From Desulfococcus multivorans (GTDB lineage: Bacteria; Desulfobacterota; Desulfobacteria; Desulfobacterales; Desulfococcaceae), in contig NZ_CP015381.1 in assembly GCF_001854245.1 (NCBI RefSeq), positions 2,453,001 through 2,517,000 of the forward strand: a DNA stretch of 64,000 nucleotides, read 5' to 3'. The translations under genes were made by a program, and so were the position numbers. This document shows, piece by piece, positions 32,614 to 51,780 of this stretch (within the stretch, counting starts at the first letter, position 1; every line of letters starts with the position of its first letter). The notes under the pieces are model-generated. The model was not told the origin of the DNA and ran no database searches. It saw nothing but the letters and a program-made list of their open reading frames with translations.

Positions 32614-32711
32614 GGAAGTGCACAGCTCACTGGTGGGGCTCCCGGACTTCAAATCCGGTGTGGGGCGCTAAAACCGTCCCGGGTGGGTTCGATTCCCATG
32701 CACTTCCGCCA
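32614..32711 (+). tRNA. selC: tRNA-Sec (anticodon TCA)
   Basis: 98 bases including the encoded CCA. It has a long acceptor stem (GGAAGTGC with GCACTTCC), anticodon stem CCGGA/TCCGG with loop CTTCAAA carrying TCA, and an extended variable arm (GTGGGGCGCTAAAACCGTCC). The T-arm is GGGTTCGATTCCC. The unusually long acceptor branch and extra arm identify the selenocysteine tRNA, so the organism decodes UGA as selenocysteine. No selA, selB or selD is adjacent. Confidence 0.96.
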
Positions 32712-41250: not shown

Positions 41251-43800
41251 TCAGGCCCAAAGGAGCAGGCCCGGCTGGAACCTCGCCCACGCGTCCCCGG
41301 CCGGAAGCACCCGGGCCGTGAAGCCGTACCGACCCGAAACCCGGCAGGTAATGTCACAGGCATAGAGATATCGGCCGCCGCCGTGGGCTTCGAGCATTTC
41401 CATCTTCTTGGCCTTTCCCGACATCACGCGATCCGCCGACTGCACCAGGCCGTAAAAAAGCTCTACGGTCACGTCTTCCGGCGCCAGGTCCCCCAGGTCG
41501 ACCAGCGTGGTCATGTGAAGTTTCTCCCCCACCCGAAAAGGCCCTTCGGTCTCCTGAATCGGCGGTTGAATTCGAATGTCTCCCCACAGGGCGTTGACTT
41601 TTTTCCTCTGGGCCGCCAGTTTCCGGGCGCGGCTCGCCCCCTCCGACAGAAGTTCGAACAGGTGTTCCCGGGCCGGGTCGTAAAAACGGCCGTTGTACTC
41701 GGCGACCATCCGGTGGCTGCAGAAGATCCCCATGCCCATTTTCATCGAGTTCTTCATCATCTTGACCCATCGGACGGGGATATCCCCATTCTTTCGATCA
41801 TAAAAACAGGGCACCACCTCTTCCTCGAGGACGTTGAAAAGGGCCTGGGATTCCACGGCGTCCTGGTAGGCGGGGTCGACGTACTCCTCCCCGCTGCCGA
41901 TCTTCCATCCCCGGTTCTCGGCATACCCCTCGCACCACCACCCGTCCAGAATGCTGCAATTCAAAACACCGTTGATGGCCGCCTTCATGCCCGAGGTGCC
42001 GCAGGCTTCCAGCGGGCGCCTGGGGGTATTGAGCCAGACGTCCGCGCCTTGAACCAGAAACCGGGCCACATGGATGTCGTAGTCCTCGATGAAAACGATG
42101 CGGTTCCGGATCTCGGACTTGCGGGCGAACTGCACCAGACGTTTGATCAGTTCCTTGCCTTCGTGGTCCCTCGGGTGAGCCTTCCCGGCGAAAATGAACT
42201 GGACCGGTCGGTTCTTGTCCGTCAAAAGGGCCTCGAAGCGCTCCGGGTCCTGCAGGAGCAGGTTGGCGCGCTTGTAAGTGGCAAAACGCCGGGCAAAGGC
42301 GATGGTCATGATGTCCTGATCCAGGACCAGCTCGGCATCCCGCAACATCTCCTTGGGGGCGTTCCGCCGTTTGTACTGGCGCATCATGAGTTTGCGGCAG
42401 GTTCGGATCAGACGGGCCCGGCACATCACATGGGCCCGCCACACCTCTTCTTCGTAGATGTCGTCCACCCGCCTGATGTTGCCGGGATTGGAGGGGTGAT
42501 GGTGCCACTCCGGCCCGATATAGCGCTCGAATAGCAACGCGAGCTCCCGGGAGAGAAAGGAGGGGATGTGCACGCCGTTGGTCACGTGGCTGATGGGAAT
42601 CTCGTACTCCGGAACCTCCGGCCACACATGGGTCCACATGCGGCGGGCCACCTGGCCGTGGAGTTCGCTGACGCCGTTGCAGTAGCGCGCCATATGGGCG
42701 CCCAGGACAAACATGGAGATGGGTGAATCCGGCGGGGCCCCCTGGGCCTGCCCCCATGACAGGATTTCGTCCGCCGTGGCGCCGATGCGTTCCTCCAGGG
42801 GAACGAGATAGGGCCGGATCAGCTCCACGGGAAATTCCTCGTTTCCCGCGGACACGGGGGTATGGGTCGTGAAAACGGTGGTTCGGGGGATGATTTCGAG
42901 GGCGGTTTTCAGGTCCACATGATGGTTCTCCCGAATCTGGGCGATACGCTCGAGGCTGGAGAAAGCCGAATGCCCTTCGTTCATGTGGCAGACGGCCGGA
43001 TGGATATCGAGAGCGGCCAGCGCCCGCATGCCGCCGATGCCCAGGAGCATCTCCTGGGCGATGCGCATCTTTTCCTCCCCGATATAGAGCTTTGAGGTGA
43101 TGTCCCGAATCTCCCTTGGATTGACGGAGACATTGCTGTCGAGAAGGTAGAGCGGAACGCATCCGACATTCAGACGCCAGACCGCGGCGGTGATGTCGCC
43201 GTCCGGACCGGCGACGGAGACATAGAGGTCGTCTCCCCTGGCGTCTTTTGCCTTTTCGATGGGAAGCTGGTAGATGTCGGTCTCGGGATACTCCTCCTGC
43301 TGCCACCCGTCCTGGTCGAGAAACTGCCGGAAATAGCCCTGGCGGTATAACAACCCGACACCCACCAGGGGCAGATCCATGTCAGAAGCGGCCTTCAGGT
43401 GATCCCCCGCCAGGATGCCCAACCCGCCGGCAAAGAGCGGAATGCTCTCGTGGATCCCGAATTCCATGGAAAAATAAGCGACGGCGTACCGACGGGCCGG
43501 CAACGAACCATTGTCGCCCCGGCCGGCGCAGGCAAGCTTCTGGAACTGGGACCGGACCCGTTCCTGGTGACTCAGAAAGCTCTTGTCCGCGGCCAGCTCC
43601 TCCAGCCGTTTCTGGGGAATATAGGTCAGAAAAAGAATAGGGTTTCGCCCACACCCGTCCCACAGCCGGGGGTCGATGCGGCGAAACAGCTCGACGGCGT
43701 CATACTGCCAGCACCACCAGATATTTCGGGAAAGGACCTCCAGAAAGGAGAGGGCCTCGGGGATGTCGGGCAAAACGCGAAAGGTTTGCAGATGGCTCAT
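41251..43800 (-). CDS. glgP: Alpha-glucan phosphorylase (GT35, short DUF3417 type)
   Basis: 849 residues from ATG 43800, chosen because MSHLQTFRVLPDIPEALSFL begins like the family; a TTG at 43860 would add 20 residues, and neither start has a strong ribosome binding site. An N-terminal DUF3417 segment (RNIWWCWQYDAVELFRRIDP) precedes the phosphorylase core. AYFSMEFGIHESIPLFAGGL and the pyridoxal-phosphate region EACGTSGMKAAINGVL with its lysine are intact. The C-terminal domain is the prokaryotic short type. It releases glucose-1-phosphate from storage glucan. Confidence 0.92.
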   Translation of the reverse strand: MSHLQTFRVLPDIPEALSFLEVLSRNIWWCWQYDAVELFRRIDPRLWDGCGRNPILFLTYIPQKRLEELAADKSFLSHQERVRSQFQKLACAGRGDNGSLPARRYAVAYFSMEFGIHESIPLFAGGLGILAGDHLKAASDMDLPLVGVGLLYRQGYFRQFLDQDGWQQEEYPETDIYQLPIEKAKDARGDDLYVSVAGPDGDITAAVWRLNVGCVPLYLLDSNVSVNPREIRDITSKLYIGEEKMRIAQEMLLGIGGMRALAALDIHPAVCHMNEGHSAFSSLERIAQIRENHHVDLKTALEIIPRTTVFTTHTPVSAGNEEFPVELIRPYLVPLEERIGATADEILSWGQAQGAPPDSPISMFVLGAHMARYCNGVSELHGQVARRMWTHVWPEVPEYEIPISHVTNGVHIPSFLSRELALLFERYIGPEWHHHPSNPGNIRRVDDIYEEEVWRAHVMCRARLIRTCRKLMMRQYKRRNAPKEMLRDAELVLDQDIMTIAFARRFATYKRANLLLQDPERFEALLTDKNRPVQFIFAGKAHPRDHEGKELIKRLVQFARKSEIRNRIVFIEDYDIHVARFLVQGADVWLNTPRRPLEACGTSGMKAAINGVLNCSILDGWWCEGYAENRGWKIGSGEEYVDPAYQDAVESQALFNVLEEEVVPCFYDRKNGDIPVRWVKMMKNSMKMGMGIFCSHRMVAEYNGRFYDPAREHLFELLSEGASRARKLAAQRKKVNALWGDIRIQPPIQETEGPFRVGEKLHMTTLVDLGDLAPEDVTVELFYGLVQSADRVMSGKAKKMEMLEAHGGGRYLYACDITCRVSGRYGFTARVLPAGDAWARFQPGLLLWA

Positions 43801-44033
43801 AAACTCAACTTGTAATTTCGATTTCAGGTTATCGCCCCCGATTTCGGGGACGGCGATCAACTCATGAAAGTGTTATTACCCAATCGAGCCGTATAAATCA
43901 AGGGGATAACCGTGCGTCCCACGTCGCTCAGAAATCGACACCCCCCGAAAGAGAGCGGCTTCGGACATCTTGATGGACCGAGGCGGGTGTGGTAGATGAG
44001 AAAGCCGGATGGGCTTCAATCTCAACTTTCGAT
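43801..44033. other. Intergenic region between glgP and the repeat elements
   Basis: No coding or RNA gene recognised. The glgP promoter should lie here on the minus strand. Confidence 0.3.
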
Positions 44034-44074
44034 TTTCATAGGCCGGTGCCGGACTTTCATAGGCCGGTGCCGGG
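44034..44074 (+). repeat. 21-bp direct repeat leading into the fold-back element
   Basis: TTTCATAGGCCGGTGCCGG occurs at 44034 and again 21 bases later, the second copy running into the left arm of the fold-back element. Confidence 0.75.
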
Positions 44075-44219
44075 AGGATACGGCCCTCGCCCAGCGCGGT
44101 TTCGTTCAAGTGCCGCTAAAGCTTGCTCCGGGCGGCCCGGAAACTCGCTTCGCTCAAACAGTCCGGGCCGCTGATCCTCCGCGGCGCTTAAGCGGCACGG
44201 GCCGTATCCTCCCGGCACC
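44066..44219. repeat. 154-bp three-tier fold-back (MITE-like) element
   Basis: A perfect 21-base outer inverted repeat (44066-44086 and 44199-44219, GGTGCCGGGAGGATACGGCC and its complement) encloses a middle pair (44110-44122 and 44186-44198, 12 of 13 matching) and a perfect inner 10-base pair (44132-44141 and 44162-44171, GCGGCCCGGA). The three stems are nested and would fold into one long hairpin. There is no coding frame of interest inside. It lies 60 bases before the GT4 gene at 44280. Confidence 0.8.
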
Positions 44220-44279
44220 TCTATCCGGTCACCATCATGCTTATTGACGGCTTGGATGAGCAGACGAAACGAGGCGTGA

Positions 44280-45440
44280 ATGACGACAGTAAACACCATC
44301 GCCATGCTGGGCTCTTTCCCGCCTCTCCGGGGCGTGAGCGGCTACTGCCTTGAACTGGCCGCCGCCATGGCCGAGCGCGGCCGGGTCGACTTCATCTCCT
44401 TCAGGGAGATGTATCCCCGCGCCCTCTATCCCGGCGGCGACCTGGCGGACGATACCACCTTTCCGGAGGTTTTTCATCCCCGGTTGACGGTACGCCGCCG
44501 CCTGACCTGGTACGACCCCGCCGGCTGGATTAAGGCGGGGCTCGGGACCCGGGCCGAACTCCTTCACGCCCAGTGGTGGAGCCTGCCGCTTGCGCCGGTC
44601 TACATGACGATCTGCGCCGGGTTCAAGGCCCGGAAAAAGCCCGTGGTCTTCACCGTTCACAACGTGCTTCCCCACGAAACCGCTCCGGCTTATATCGCGG
44701 CGTCCCGCGCCCTTTTCACCCTGGGGGACCGTTTCATCGTCCATACCGAGAAAAACCGTCGTCAGCTCGCAGCCCACTACGGCATCCCTGAATCCCGGAT
44801 CAGCAGGATCCCCCACGGCACCCTCGATTTCCAGGCCCGGTCCGGCAAAAGCGACGGCACCTTTCGAACAGATATGGGCATTGGCCCCGAGGAGAAGATC
44901 GTCCTCCTGTTCGGAGCCGTCCGACCTTATAAAGGTGTCGATACGGCCCTGAAGGCCCTTGCCGAAATCCTGAAAATCAGAGCCGACGTGCGCCTGGTGA
45001 TCGCCGGAAAATTGTGGGAAAGCTGGGCGCCATACGAATGCCTCATCCGGAAGTTGGGGCTTTACGACCACGTCCTGCCGATTCTCGACTACATTCCGTC
45101 GGCCGGGGTCCATCGGCTCTTCACCGCAGCGGATCTGGTCATCCTGCCTTATCACCATTTCGACAGCCAGTCGGGGGTCGCGGGCACGGCCCTGGCTTTC
45201 CGAAAACCCATGATCGTCTCGGCTGTGGGCGGCCTCCCGGACCTGGTGAAGAACCCGGCCTGCGTGGTCCCCCCACAGAACCCCGCGGCCCTTGCCCGGG
45301 CGGTCGTCCGCTGCCTCCAAGACCCGAACCGACTCCGATCTCTGGCAGCGGACGCCCATGCCCTCAGCCGGGATTTTTCCTGGAAGGCCATTGCCAAAGC
45401 CACCTTCCTGGTGTATAAGGATGCCTGTAAAAAGTTATAG
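44280..45440 (+). CDS. Glycosyltransferase family 4
   Basis: 386 residues, GT-B fold. The N-terminal half opens NTIAMLGSFPPLRGVSGYCL, with LLHAQWWSLPLAPVYMT and VFTVHNVLPHE. The C-terminal half has the sugar-nucleotide motif VLLFGAVRPYKGVDTALKAL and HRLFTAADLVILPYHHFDSQ followed by the glycine-rich loop. It transfers an activated hexose to a lipid-linked oligosaccharide in related systems. It begins the plus-strand surface polysaccharide run and is followed after 30 bases by the radical SAM gene. GAGGCG precedes the ATG. Confidence 0.88.
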   Translation: MTTVNTIAMLGSFPPLRGVSGYCLELAAAMAERGRVDFISFREMYPRALYPGGDLADDTTFPEVFHPRLTVRRRLTWYDPAGWIKAGLGTRAELLHAQWWSLPLAPVYMTICAGFKARKKPVVFTVHNVLPHETAPAYIAASRALFTLGDRFIVHTEKNRRQLAAHYGIPESRISRIPHGTLDFQARSGKSDGTFRTDMGIGPEEKIVLLFGAVRPYKGVDTALKALAEILKIRADVRLVIAGKLWESWAPYECLIRKLGLYDHVLPILDYIPSAGVHRLFTAADLVILPYHHFDSQSGVAGTALAFRKPMIVSAVGGLPDLVKNPACVVPPQNPAALARAVVRCLQDPNRLRSLAADAHALSRDFSWKAIAKATFLVYKDACKKL

Positions 45441-49392: not shown

Positions 49393-50881
49393 GTAAGCGA
49401 TCAGAGGGTACTTGAAAAATATTAGGAAATCCAGGCCATGTCTGGATTCAGCTCTTTGAAGAAACACTGCACGGCATCGACGAGTACAGGAAAAAGTTTC
49501 CTGGACCTGAGTCTGCAGGTATGGCGAAGTGTCAGAATGCGCTCTACCCAGCGCTGCCCTTTTGTACTCTCAGTCCCCTGGCTTCGCTTTCGCCAGATGA
49601 CGGCATAACGCAGCATTCTTTCGGCATGGTTATTGGTGGGATCAACGCCCTCCTCGTCAAGGAATACAAACAGGGATTCAATCTCCTTGTCAAGGCGGCG
49701 CGCCATTCGTCCGGCATCGTTTTTCTCATCACGATAAAGCCCGATCAACCGGCAGAGCCTTGCATAAAAGGCGTTCCATTCTCCCTGGGCAGGCGGCTTT
49801 TTCGCCATGTTGCACAATCGTTGAAGTTCACTCGTGCACCAGACCCCAAATTTGGCAATGCCGGGGTCCCTTCTTTCTCTCAATCCTTTGGCCCTGCGGA
49901 TCAGATGTGCCAGGCAGGTCTGTCGCCCGGCGGCCCATTTCTGATAAACGCCATAGTCGTCGCTGATCAGGATGCCGTTCCATTTTTCAATCAGCGCCTC
50001 GAAGGCCTCTTTTGAGCGGTTTGGATGGATTTTAAAGAAGGCTTCATCATCGTTGGCCATGACCCAGAGCCACTCGAGGTCGCCGCTCCTGGGAAAAGAT
50101 GTTTCGTCGATATGAGCCTTGAGGGCTCGTCTGATCTTTGTTCCGATGGTTTCATAGTGAGGCTCAATTGCCTGCGACACCCGATCGATGACATTCTGGA
50201 CCGCGCCAAGGCTGATGTGAAAGTTCAGGGCAGAATTGCAGAATTCCTGGATGCTGGTCCGGCTGTTTCCGTGATTTCCAGCCAGATCACCGATCAGGGC
50301 AGTCAGCCTGGGGCCAAAGCCGGTCCTGTTTTCGGGTTGAAGTTCCGCCCTGTTTTCGACGCCGCATTTCGGACAGCCGGCTGAATGGAGAATGAAGTGC
50401 GTCACGTCCATCTTGATTTCAGGCAGCTCGATGACCTGATGCACGTAAAACGGCTTCGTTTTTGGAAAATGCCGATTGCCGCAGGGGCAACGTTCCGGCT
50501 TGAGGATGACAATTTCAGTGGGCATCATACGTTTCTGGATATGCCCTTTGTGCCCTTTTTTGGCGCCGGCTCGCTTCTGGACGGCTTTGCGCTTTGGTTT
50601 CTTCTTGTAGGGATTGTCTGAAGACGGCGGCTTGTTTGAATTCCCGGAGTTCTTGTTGATTCGATTTTCCAGTTCATCGAGGCGCCGGGTCAGGATTTCA
50701 ACCTGCTGTTCCAAAAATTCAAATGCTTTTCTTACAGGTTCAGGGGTTGCCTGCCAGTCTTCTTCTGTGAATGGACGGTACTTCATCATGGAAATTAAAG
50801 TAACAGATAGTGCATAAAAAATCTTGTGAGAAATATCATATTTTGTAGAAGGGGAAGTTAAATACCCCTGTGATCGCTTAC
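49393..50881 (-). mobile_element. Complete 1489-bp IS66-family insertion sequence, single-gene type
   Basis: Both ends read GTAAGCGATCA inward, the IS66 signature, and continue with similarity for about 24 bases (GAGGGTACTTGA versus CAGGGGTATTTAA). Perfect 8-base target duplications flank it. It carries only the large transposase and lacks the accessory tnpA and tnpB genes, as in the ISBst12-like subgroup. Intact ends, intact transposase and perfect duplications indicate a recent and possibly still active copy. Confidence 0.95.
49422..50789 (-). CDS. tnpC: IS66-family transposase (TnpC)
   Basis: 455 residues from ATG 50789 (a second ATG follows directly). A leucine-zipper-like N-terminus (FEFLEQQVEILTRRLDELEN) is followed by the basic PSSDNPYKKKPKRK linker and a zinc-finger region (CPCGN and CPKCG). 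The DDE core shows AHIDETSF, LISDDYGVY and TNNHAERMLRYAVIWRK, and a C-terminal segment with RHTCRLR. The open frame continues upstream into the interrupted glycosyltransferase by chance of frame, giving an artificial 735-codon ORF. It ends 29 bases from the left end of the element. Confidence 0.94.
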   Translation of the reverse strand: MMKYRPFTEEDWQATPEPVRKAFEFLEQQVEILTRRLDELENRINKNSGNSNKPPSSDNPYKKKPKRKAVQKRAGAKKGHKGHIQKRMMPTEIVILKPERCPCGNRHFPKTKPFYVHQVIELPEIKMDVTHFILHSAGCPKCGVENRAELQPENRTGFGPRLTALIGDLAGNHGNSRTSIQEFCNSALNFHISLGAVQNVIDRVSQAIEPHYETIGTKIRRALKAHIDETSFPRSGDLEWLWVMANDDEAFFKIHPNRSKEAFEALIEKWNGILISDDYGVYQKWAAGRQTCLAHLIRRAKGLRERRDPGIAKFGVWCTSELQRLCNMAKKPPAQGEWNAFYARLCRLIGLYRDEKNDAGRMARRLDKEIESLFVFLDEEGVDPTNNHAERMLRYAVIWRKRSQGTESTKGQRWVERILTLRHTCRLRSRKLFPVLVDAVQCFFKELNPDMAWIS

Positions 50882-50889
50882 GAATTTTC
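50882..50889. repeat. Target-site duplication, right copy
   Basis: GAATTTTC immediately outside the right end of the element, matching 49385-49392. Confidence 0.95.
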
Positions 50890-51780
50890 CAACCTTTTCT
50901 TACTGCCGGTGATCGTTTATCGACCTTTTTTCCACCACAAAAAAGAAGTGTTTTATAATTTGATTTCATTGACTGGAATGACTTATCACCTTTAAGTGGA
51001 TAAAAAAGCGTATTACTGATACCATTATTTATAACACTCAGAGAATGTTGACCTAAGTGGCTTTCTCGCAATAAGTTTTTAAGCCACTGGCTGGGACATA
51101 TCACGCTAAAGCACGAATGTTTGTAAACCCATTCTTTAAGATACCTGTTAATCTTTACCATCCAAGTTGGCCAAATAGTGCAACTCTCACATTTTTTTGC
51201 ATCTAAATCGCATTTATCAGTTGCAGGCCATCCTACCATACAGATAGCCCAAACATCATGCAGGGTCCAAACTAACGGATAACGCCATGAAAAAAGCAAT
51301 GTGCCCAAAGAAAATGTCTGTAAATTAATGTTGTGGACATTGATTATATCGGGTTTGAAATGCTTACATATGTAATATAGCTTTTTTAAAAGAAGCAGGT
51401 TAAAATAATGATAAATTTTAAATTCGTTCGCGTTTGAAAGGATTTGCGTGTGATATTTTTCTGACTGTGTTGTTGATGAACTCTCACCAGTGCAGACAAA
51501 AAGCACATTATGGCCTTTTTTCGCTAATCCCCGAGCCACATCCTCAGCGATGACAGATGCGCCTCCATGATCTTTTTTTGATGTAACAACTAAAATTTTC
51601 ATATTTATCGGGTGTGCACAATTGATCAATTACATACTATAATCTAAAAAAAATATTTTTATGATATATTGTTCTACTTGGGTTTGGGATTTGCAGACAA
51701 AAAACAGTCAAAACTTGGCGGTGGTTTTGATTAAATAAAATAAATCCATATTAGTTGACTTTAACTTTAATTTAAAGTAG

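Follow-up and report, generated by a model that had tools for sequence, protein, structure and literature searches.

The fold-back element ahead of a glycosyltransferase gene in Desulfococcus multivorans was almost certainly a degenerate copy of a MITE, a non-autonomous transposable element that, with these terminal inverted repeats (TIRs), was seen in Desulfococcus. The element lay in the window, a stretch of 64,000 bp. An earlier note had described it as a three-tier element of 154 bp. The arms of this description were retained, but its limits were too narrow, since the remnant extended over 44021-44239 and its anatomy was that of a damaged copy. The remnant was located between a glycogen phosphorylase gene on the minus strand and the divergent glycosyltransferase gene on the plus strand. 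The features of the region were as follows.

41251-43815, minus strand: glycogen phosphorylase family gene (PF00343 and DUF3417), reading away from the element
44021-44239, plus strand: MITE remnant, one full-length copy in 'A' orientation (loop AACTCGCTTCGCTCAAACA on the plus strand), delimited by alignment with other genomic copies
44021-44039, plus strand: left TIR, C-TCAACTTTCGATTTTCAT, with one mismatch to the consensus
44031-44051, plus strand: first copy of a 21-bp tandem duplication (TIR end and start of the outer arm)
44052-44072, plus strand: second copy of the 21-bp duplication, reaching into the left outer arm
44066-44086, plus strand: left outer arm, 21 of 21 positions paired with 44199-44219
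44110-44122, plus strand: left middle arm GTGCCGCTAAAGC, 12 of 13 positions paired with 44186-44198
44132-44141, plus strand: left inner arm GCGGCCCGGA, 10 of 10 positions paired with 44162-44171
44142-44161, plus strand: apical loop AACTCGCTTCGCTCAAACAG, from a 26-copy alignment whose copies from outside Desulfococcus were retrieved by this same loop motif
44162-44171, plus strand: right inner arm TCCGGGCCGC
44186-44198, plus strand: right middle arm GCTTAAGCGGCAC
44198-44199, no strand: site at which 24 bp present in intact copies are deleted (spacer TAAAACTCACCGCTGAAGGGGCGC in copy L013)
44199-44219, plus strand: right outer arm
44220-44239, plus strand: right subterminal segment, in which homology to the aligned intact copies ends past ATCATG
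44280-45440, plus strand: glycosyltransferase gene (PF13439, PF00534), start codon 40 bp past the remnant

The three nested inverted repeats were reproduced by script with the pairings given above. As the earlier note had stated, no gap separates the right middle arm from the right outer arm (44198|44199), because 24 bp are deleted in the window copy. The 21-bp direct repeat running into the left arm was likewise found, with 20 of 21 positions identical between 44031-44051 and 44052-44072, and another genomic copy (L116) held a similar duplication. The left TIR was the sole match in the window at up to three mismatches, against a chance expectation of 0.06. Compared with intact copies, the right TIR (AAAGTCGAAAGTTGA) was absent past 44239. 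The window copy is therefore probably immobile, and its target duplication cannot be scored because the right end was lost. Folded as RNA, the stretch reached z = -8.1 on the plus strand and z = -9.2 on the minus strand, and none of 200 shuffles was equally stable in either case. A covariance model built from five other D. multivorans copies and four copies of the sister species, with the window copy excluded, matched 44059-44230 at 125 bits.

A BLAST search with 44040-44240 against the own genome, a single contig of 4,455,399 bp, returned at least 40 strong places, the one in the window among them (E about 6e-40 or better). Scoring covered 40 of the 244 first-look candidates, which makes this number a minimum. 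Intact copies comprised about 238 bp without coding capacity, and their flanks were mutually unrelated. In the aligned copies the repeat exceeded the limits first proposed, with TCAACTTTCGACTTTCAT at the left end and its complement at the right. The TIR was 19 bp long and had the form Y-TCAACTTTCGASTTTCAT. At up to three mismatches, 427 TIR sites (209 + 218) were present genome-wide versus five for the reversed pattern. The ends were analysed in a non-random sample of 65 TIR pairs, taken from 29 BLAST loci and from 20 stretches picked for TIR density, and were best described as Y-TCAAC...GTTGA-R with a 7-bp target duplication. With the 19-bp TIR, the mean identity of the 7-bp duplication over the 65 pairs was 0.70, and other lengths at the same offset showed 0.29-0.46. 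A 7-bp duplication with at most one mismatch flanked 36 of the 65 pairs, whereas 1000 shuffles of the right flanks among elements gave 1.1 such pairs on average and never more than 6; the remaining 29 pairs lacked a clean duplication, which counts against the MITE explanation. The repeat is a MITE family, as its TIRs, target duplication, dispersed copies with unrelated flanks and short, non-coding body show. The earlier note had proposed a non-autonomous mobile element and a search for further copies and target duplications; both were found in the own genome, and the proposal held for the family with its core matches and TIR sites, the window copy itself being probably immobile.

Size classes among the 65 pairs were 235-237 bp (26 pairs, 25 of them at 236-237 bp), 74 bp (eight), 61 bp (six), 57 bp (six) and others. 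The sizes spanned 51-237 bp in a count that covered pairs up to about 318 bp. Short forms of 51-94 bp accounted for 32 pairs, and the length classes repeated at independent sites. Identical short lengths at many sites, each with its own duplication, suggest movement as short elements. The fold is dispensable for mobility, given that short forms lacking it multiplied. In two further copies (L044:7758-7993 and L045:1875-2110) the MITE core was inverted relative to the terminal repeats. At L038:4200-6480 (own genome, about 889.2-891.5 kb) the 5' part of a gene was tandemly repeated, alternating with the MITE right half and the same flank, with four MITE right ends within 1.4 kb; this array looks like a duplication through repeats.

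MITEs of this family favoured gaps between genes. In 20 own-genome stretches, 26 of 33 elements were free of ORFs, though the intergenic share was 12% with the same simple ORF caller. Of these 26, twelve were in divergent and six in convergent gaps; the co-directional gaps held four elements in the same and four in the opposite orientation. The family thus has no fixed relation to genes.

Mobilisation of the copies would have relied on a DDE-type transposase acting in trans, which would bind to the 19-bp TIR and cleave with a stagger of 7 bp; this enzyme may be gone from the genome. The window copy inserted into the gap separating two divergent genes; loss of the right TIR and of 24 bp of its interior followed, which probably made it immobile. 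No TIR pair enclosing the transposase gene was detected at 11 DDE_Tnp_1 (PF01609) loci with 1.5 kb flanks; near one of them (L080) a short TIR pair was located, 67 bp apart. A TIR search that excluded known MITE continuations returned 20 sites, 17 of which lay within TIR pairs of 57-236 bp. The other three (L099, L105 and L109) were outside TIR pairs, and the long ORFs there, judged by eye, were read as ordinary genes. Adjacent TIR pairs less than 6 kb apart in 400 kb of own sequence yielded no autonomous element. Across the PF01609 loci, the TIR-continuation search and the adjacent pairs, no autonomous partner with these TIRs was found. Two TIR-bounded elements of 1,925 bp, at first taken as autonomous, were MITEs with an inserted IS110/IS1111-type element. 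In the sister species, no clean empty orthologous site was seen. The genes that flank the window copy were on different contigs there, and orthologous intergenic regions of the two species (L059 and L112) held different elements.

Relatives of the element were identified in a limited number of genomes. At 1e-4, BLAST matched five of 96 genomes (own included): the own genome and the sister species (G001) gave strong matches; those in G070, G059 and G013 were confined to short stretches. The sister species showed the same design with TIR TCAACTTTCGAGTTTCAT; in the 20 loci read, three pairs measured 236 bp and eight measured 40-85 bp. The fold was present in the sister species and three further genera of the order. 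With up to two mismatches allowed, 12 of the 194 genomes searched (relatives and the own genome) contained the loop motif, several of them in multiple copies; the places read were 20 of 21 in G128, 11 of 11 in G153 and parts of those in other genomes. G128 and G153, which belong to one genus, had the same tiers around the loop and different stems. Elements of G128 carried TIR TCTGGTTATCCACTTCG, with pairs in 11 of 20 loci (up to five mismatches) and a best duplication of about 8 bp, five of the 11 pairs having at most one mismatch. A second other-TIR type, CAGCAATTCTCGSTGAAC, showed pairs in 8 of 13 loci (up to eight mismatches). Of these, L208 and L214 alone were clear, and the duplication that fitted best was about 9 bp long (three of eight). 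Three TIR types, TCAACTTTCGACTTTCAT, TCTGGTTATCCACTTCG and CAGCAATTCTCGSTGAAC, carried the fold; their duplications measured 7 bp, about 8 bp and about 9 bp, respectively.

The apical hairpin was also present in other repeat contexts in Gammaproteobacteria and Bacteroidota, with different stems in Salinisphaera, Endozoicomonas and Marinilabilia. A second repeat context comprised loci of G165, G143, G144, G181 and G059 (L189, L190 and L231-L255) as well as Salinisphaera L082-L084 and Endozoicomonas L094. There the apical hairpin was often behind a hairpin of type TTTTCTTnnnnAAGAAAAcgAACCAAAAGAAA, and the hairpins tested from this context had no Rfam match at the hairpin. The loop AACTCGCTTCGCTCAAACA alone was rejected as a family marker. 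The string is not diagnostic because a stem of at least 8 bp accompanied it in only five of 54 viral contigs (L128, L135, L136, L149 and L158). In the genome-contig collection, all 14 loop matches had stems of 10 bp or longer (one mismatch, G.T allowed), the search pattern fixing a 5' CCGG. Plasmid and phage collections returned no BLASTN match to the element at 1e-3, and TIR matches in three viral contigs were without MITE continuation. TIR-like matches on several contigs of G011 were mainly runs of the heptamer TTTCAAC; they represent low complexity and no elements, because the reversed control was higher (53 versus 22).

The fold was conserved beyond the sequence of its stems. In 28 full-length copies (23 own, five from the sister species) it formed a rod of 62 pairs with 97.1% pairing, and 24 of the 62 pairs were changed on both sides, a value reached by none of 500 shuffles. 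Alignment A3 comprised 26 copies of five lineages and 47 pairs, with 93.7% of cells paired. It drew on 30 sequences, L203, L207, L210 and L219 being omitted; these four matched the covariance model with 159, 190, 178 and 128 bits, respectively. The inverted-core copies L044 and L045 had been dropped between alignments A1 and A2. Two-sided changes were present in 28 of the 47 pairs of A3, amounting to 207 cells; shuffles gave 62.5 +/- 6.1 (none of 500 reached the observed value), and sliding yielded no more than 66. The compensatory changes expected in the earlier note from a covariation analysis across copies were thus found in abundance. They leave its suggestion of a structured RNA standing, but RNA, single-stranded DNA (ssDNA) and homogenisation of the arms are not separated by them.

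The model was searched on 58 sources chosen by the author and the 20 own-genome stretches. Full-length matches were obtained in two genera outside it, L256 (G070) with 74.9 bits and L228 (G191) with 63.3 bits; in other contexts mostly the apical part alone was matched. Loop constancy outside Desulfococcus and G070 is partly built in, because these copies had been retrieved with the loop motif itself (up to two mismatches). The stems past the first pairs and the junctions TAA and TCC were outside the search motif, and these junction positions were constant or nearly so while the stems were rewritten. In L256, which was found by BLAST, the middle of the loop differed. The shape was kept while letters changed in related bacteria, so the shape itself may matter. 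The types of mismatch, A.C versus G.U, gave no consistent strand signal across sets. A strand preference of the fold, indicated by a ratio of 16:5 in D. multivorans (one-sided p 0.013), was rejected with 3:4 in the sister species and 22:15 in A3.

Stems may also remain complementary without selection. In quasi-palindrome correction, the template switches between arms during replication. Such arm-to-arm switching copies changes across the arms, and the chances that it keeps the stems paired here appear evenly balanced, as they do for homogenisation being the main cause of the covariation. Within D. multivorans, the outer arm of L014, L015 and L024 had already changed on both sides, even though these copies differed by few bases. 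Recombination or switching of arms is suggested by L044 and L045 with their inverted cores. Both observations favour switching as one driver, and arm homogenisation could explain part of the two-sided stem changes. It leaves two features unaccounted for, the constancy of the junction positions and a tier layout that stays the same under different TIRs; the constant junctions call for a cause besides switching.

The second reading is a functional structured RNA or protein-bound ssDNA carried as cargo by several MITE lineages, with selection keeping stems, loop and junctions. This reading is possible, though we consider it rather doubtful. The covariation in A3, far above shuffles, speaks for it, as do the near-constant junctions amid rewritten stems, the full-length matches in two genera outside the model and the three TIR types that carry the fold. 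Against this, loop constancy outside Desulfococcus comes partly from motif-based retrieval, short forms without the fold multiplied and the orientation to genes is not fixed. In addition, Rfam 15 gave no match overlapping an element in the window and 14 loci, and the strand signal was inconsistent. That an undescribed structured nucleic acid, RNA or folded ssDNA, was the conserved unit and rode at least three MITE lineages through one order is a tentative suggestion and on the whole unlikely.

That the element acts in cis on the downstream glycosyltransferase gene, as a terminator or leader, is very improbable: the hairpin is strong and its right arm ends 60 bp ahead of the start codon, but a scan gave no promoter-like or terminator-like site in the element, and the family occupies divergent, convergent and co-directional gaps in both orientations. 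Origin as a REP/BIME-type palindrome spread by RAYT (HUH tyrosine transposase), suggested by the high-copy, extragenic and palindromic nature of the element, was rejected as extremely improbable, since the unit of about 238 bp with TIRs and target duplications is not one of 20-40 bp, Y1_Tnp matches numbered one in the own genome and six in the seven genomes searched, and none of these six loci (flanks of about 1.5 kb) contained the loop motif or the TIR, so no Y1 transposase gene was flanked by the hairpin.

Bacterial MITEs such as Correia/NEMIS, RUP, ERIC, QMITE2 and MITEAba12 are likewise small and non-coding with TIRs and target duplications, and share the intergenic preference and strong predicted stem-loops. 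For QMITE2, direct repeats of 7-9 bp, TIRs of 23-29 bp and a core of 113-145 bp are given in the part of the source consulted (PMC10969869). MITEs have been described as AT-rich, whereas the interior here was GC-rich, with a G+C of 0.64-0.68 in the 11 best own-genome matches. Further differences are the multi-tier hairpin, whose pairing persists while stems are rewritten between species and genera, and related interiors under three TIR types. MITEAba12 has a known parent IS, its TIR being common to ISAba12 according to the passages used (PMC6382973), whereas none was found for the element here in the PF01609, TIR-continuation and adjacent-pair searches.

REP/BIME sequences with RAYT (GTAG and CGTC families) are palindromic, extragenic and in high copy, as here. 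REPs are given as 20-40 bp long in the section cited (PMC3733652) and, in an excerpt of another source (PMC2817692), have a terminal tag and IS200/IS605-like transposases. The element here differs in its length of about 238 bp with TIR and duplication, and no linked Y1 transposase was found at the six loci in seven genomes. Structured RNA candidates from comparative genomics, as far as the descriptions consulted go, combine covariation with conserved unpaired positions, as does the fold here. It differs in being multicopy inside transposable elements and without Rfam 15 match. MITEs are usually regarded as IS leftovers with an unimportant interior. The interior here keeps a complex shape across genera and different terminal repeats despite sequence drift, and fold-less short relatives spread too. 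This poses the question of whether the fold is selected, as RNA or ssDNA, or whether inverted arms correct one another. Among the papers listed by literature searches, none appeared to deal with this element, which is not proof of its being unpublished. The genome paper of D. multivorans DSM 2059 (PMC5109826) counts 45 mobile-element genes, and no repeat family was noticed in the portions of it that were consulted.

The MITE hairpin is itself a probable hairpin-specific target of an IS110/IS1111-type element. Two MITE copies, L037:781-2705 (own genome 401780) and L038:2501-4425 (own genome 887500), each contained a 1,689-bp element with a PF01548/PF02371 transposase, inserted at exactly the same point (GCTTTA / GCGGCAC), and the two inserts differed at one base. 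In IS1111 and IS110 elements a guide RNA picks the insertion site, and some IS1111-family targets are potentially folded sites, attC for ISKpn4 and REP for ISPa11, as stated in the part of PMC11187229 consulted. Like these, the MITE hairpin offers a defined insertion place in a potentially folded site; attC is a cassette site, whereas the folded target here is a dispersed MITE. REP and attC are thereby joined by a further folded site, dispersed in the genome, that an IS1111-type element uses.

Two further observations were made in the window. At 49422-51629 on the minus strand, one frame fused a glycosyltransferase start (PF13439) to an IS66-family transposase (PF03050), apparently a sugar-transfer gene disrupted by an IS66 element. 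A tRNA-Sec gene was located at 32614-32707 on the plus strand, consistent with the selenocysteine genes of D. multivorans reported in the sections consulted of PMC5109826.
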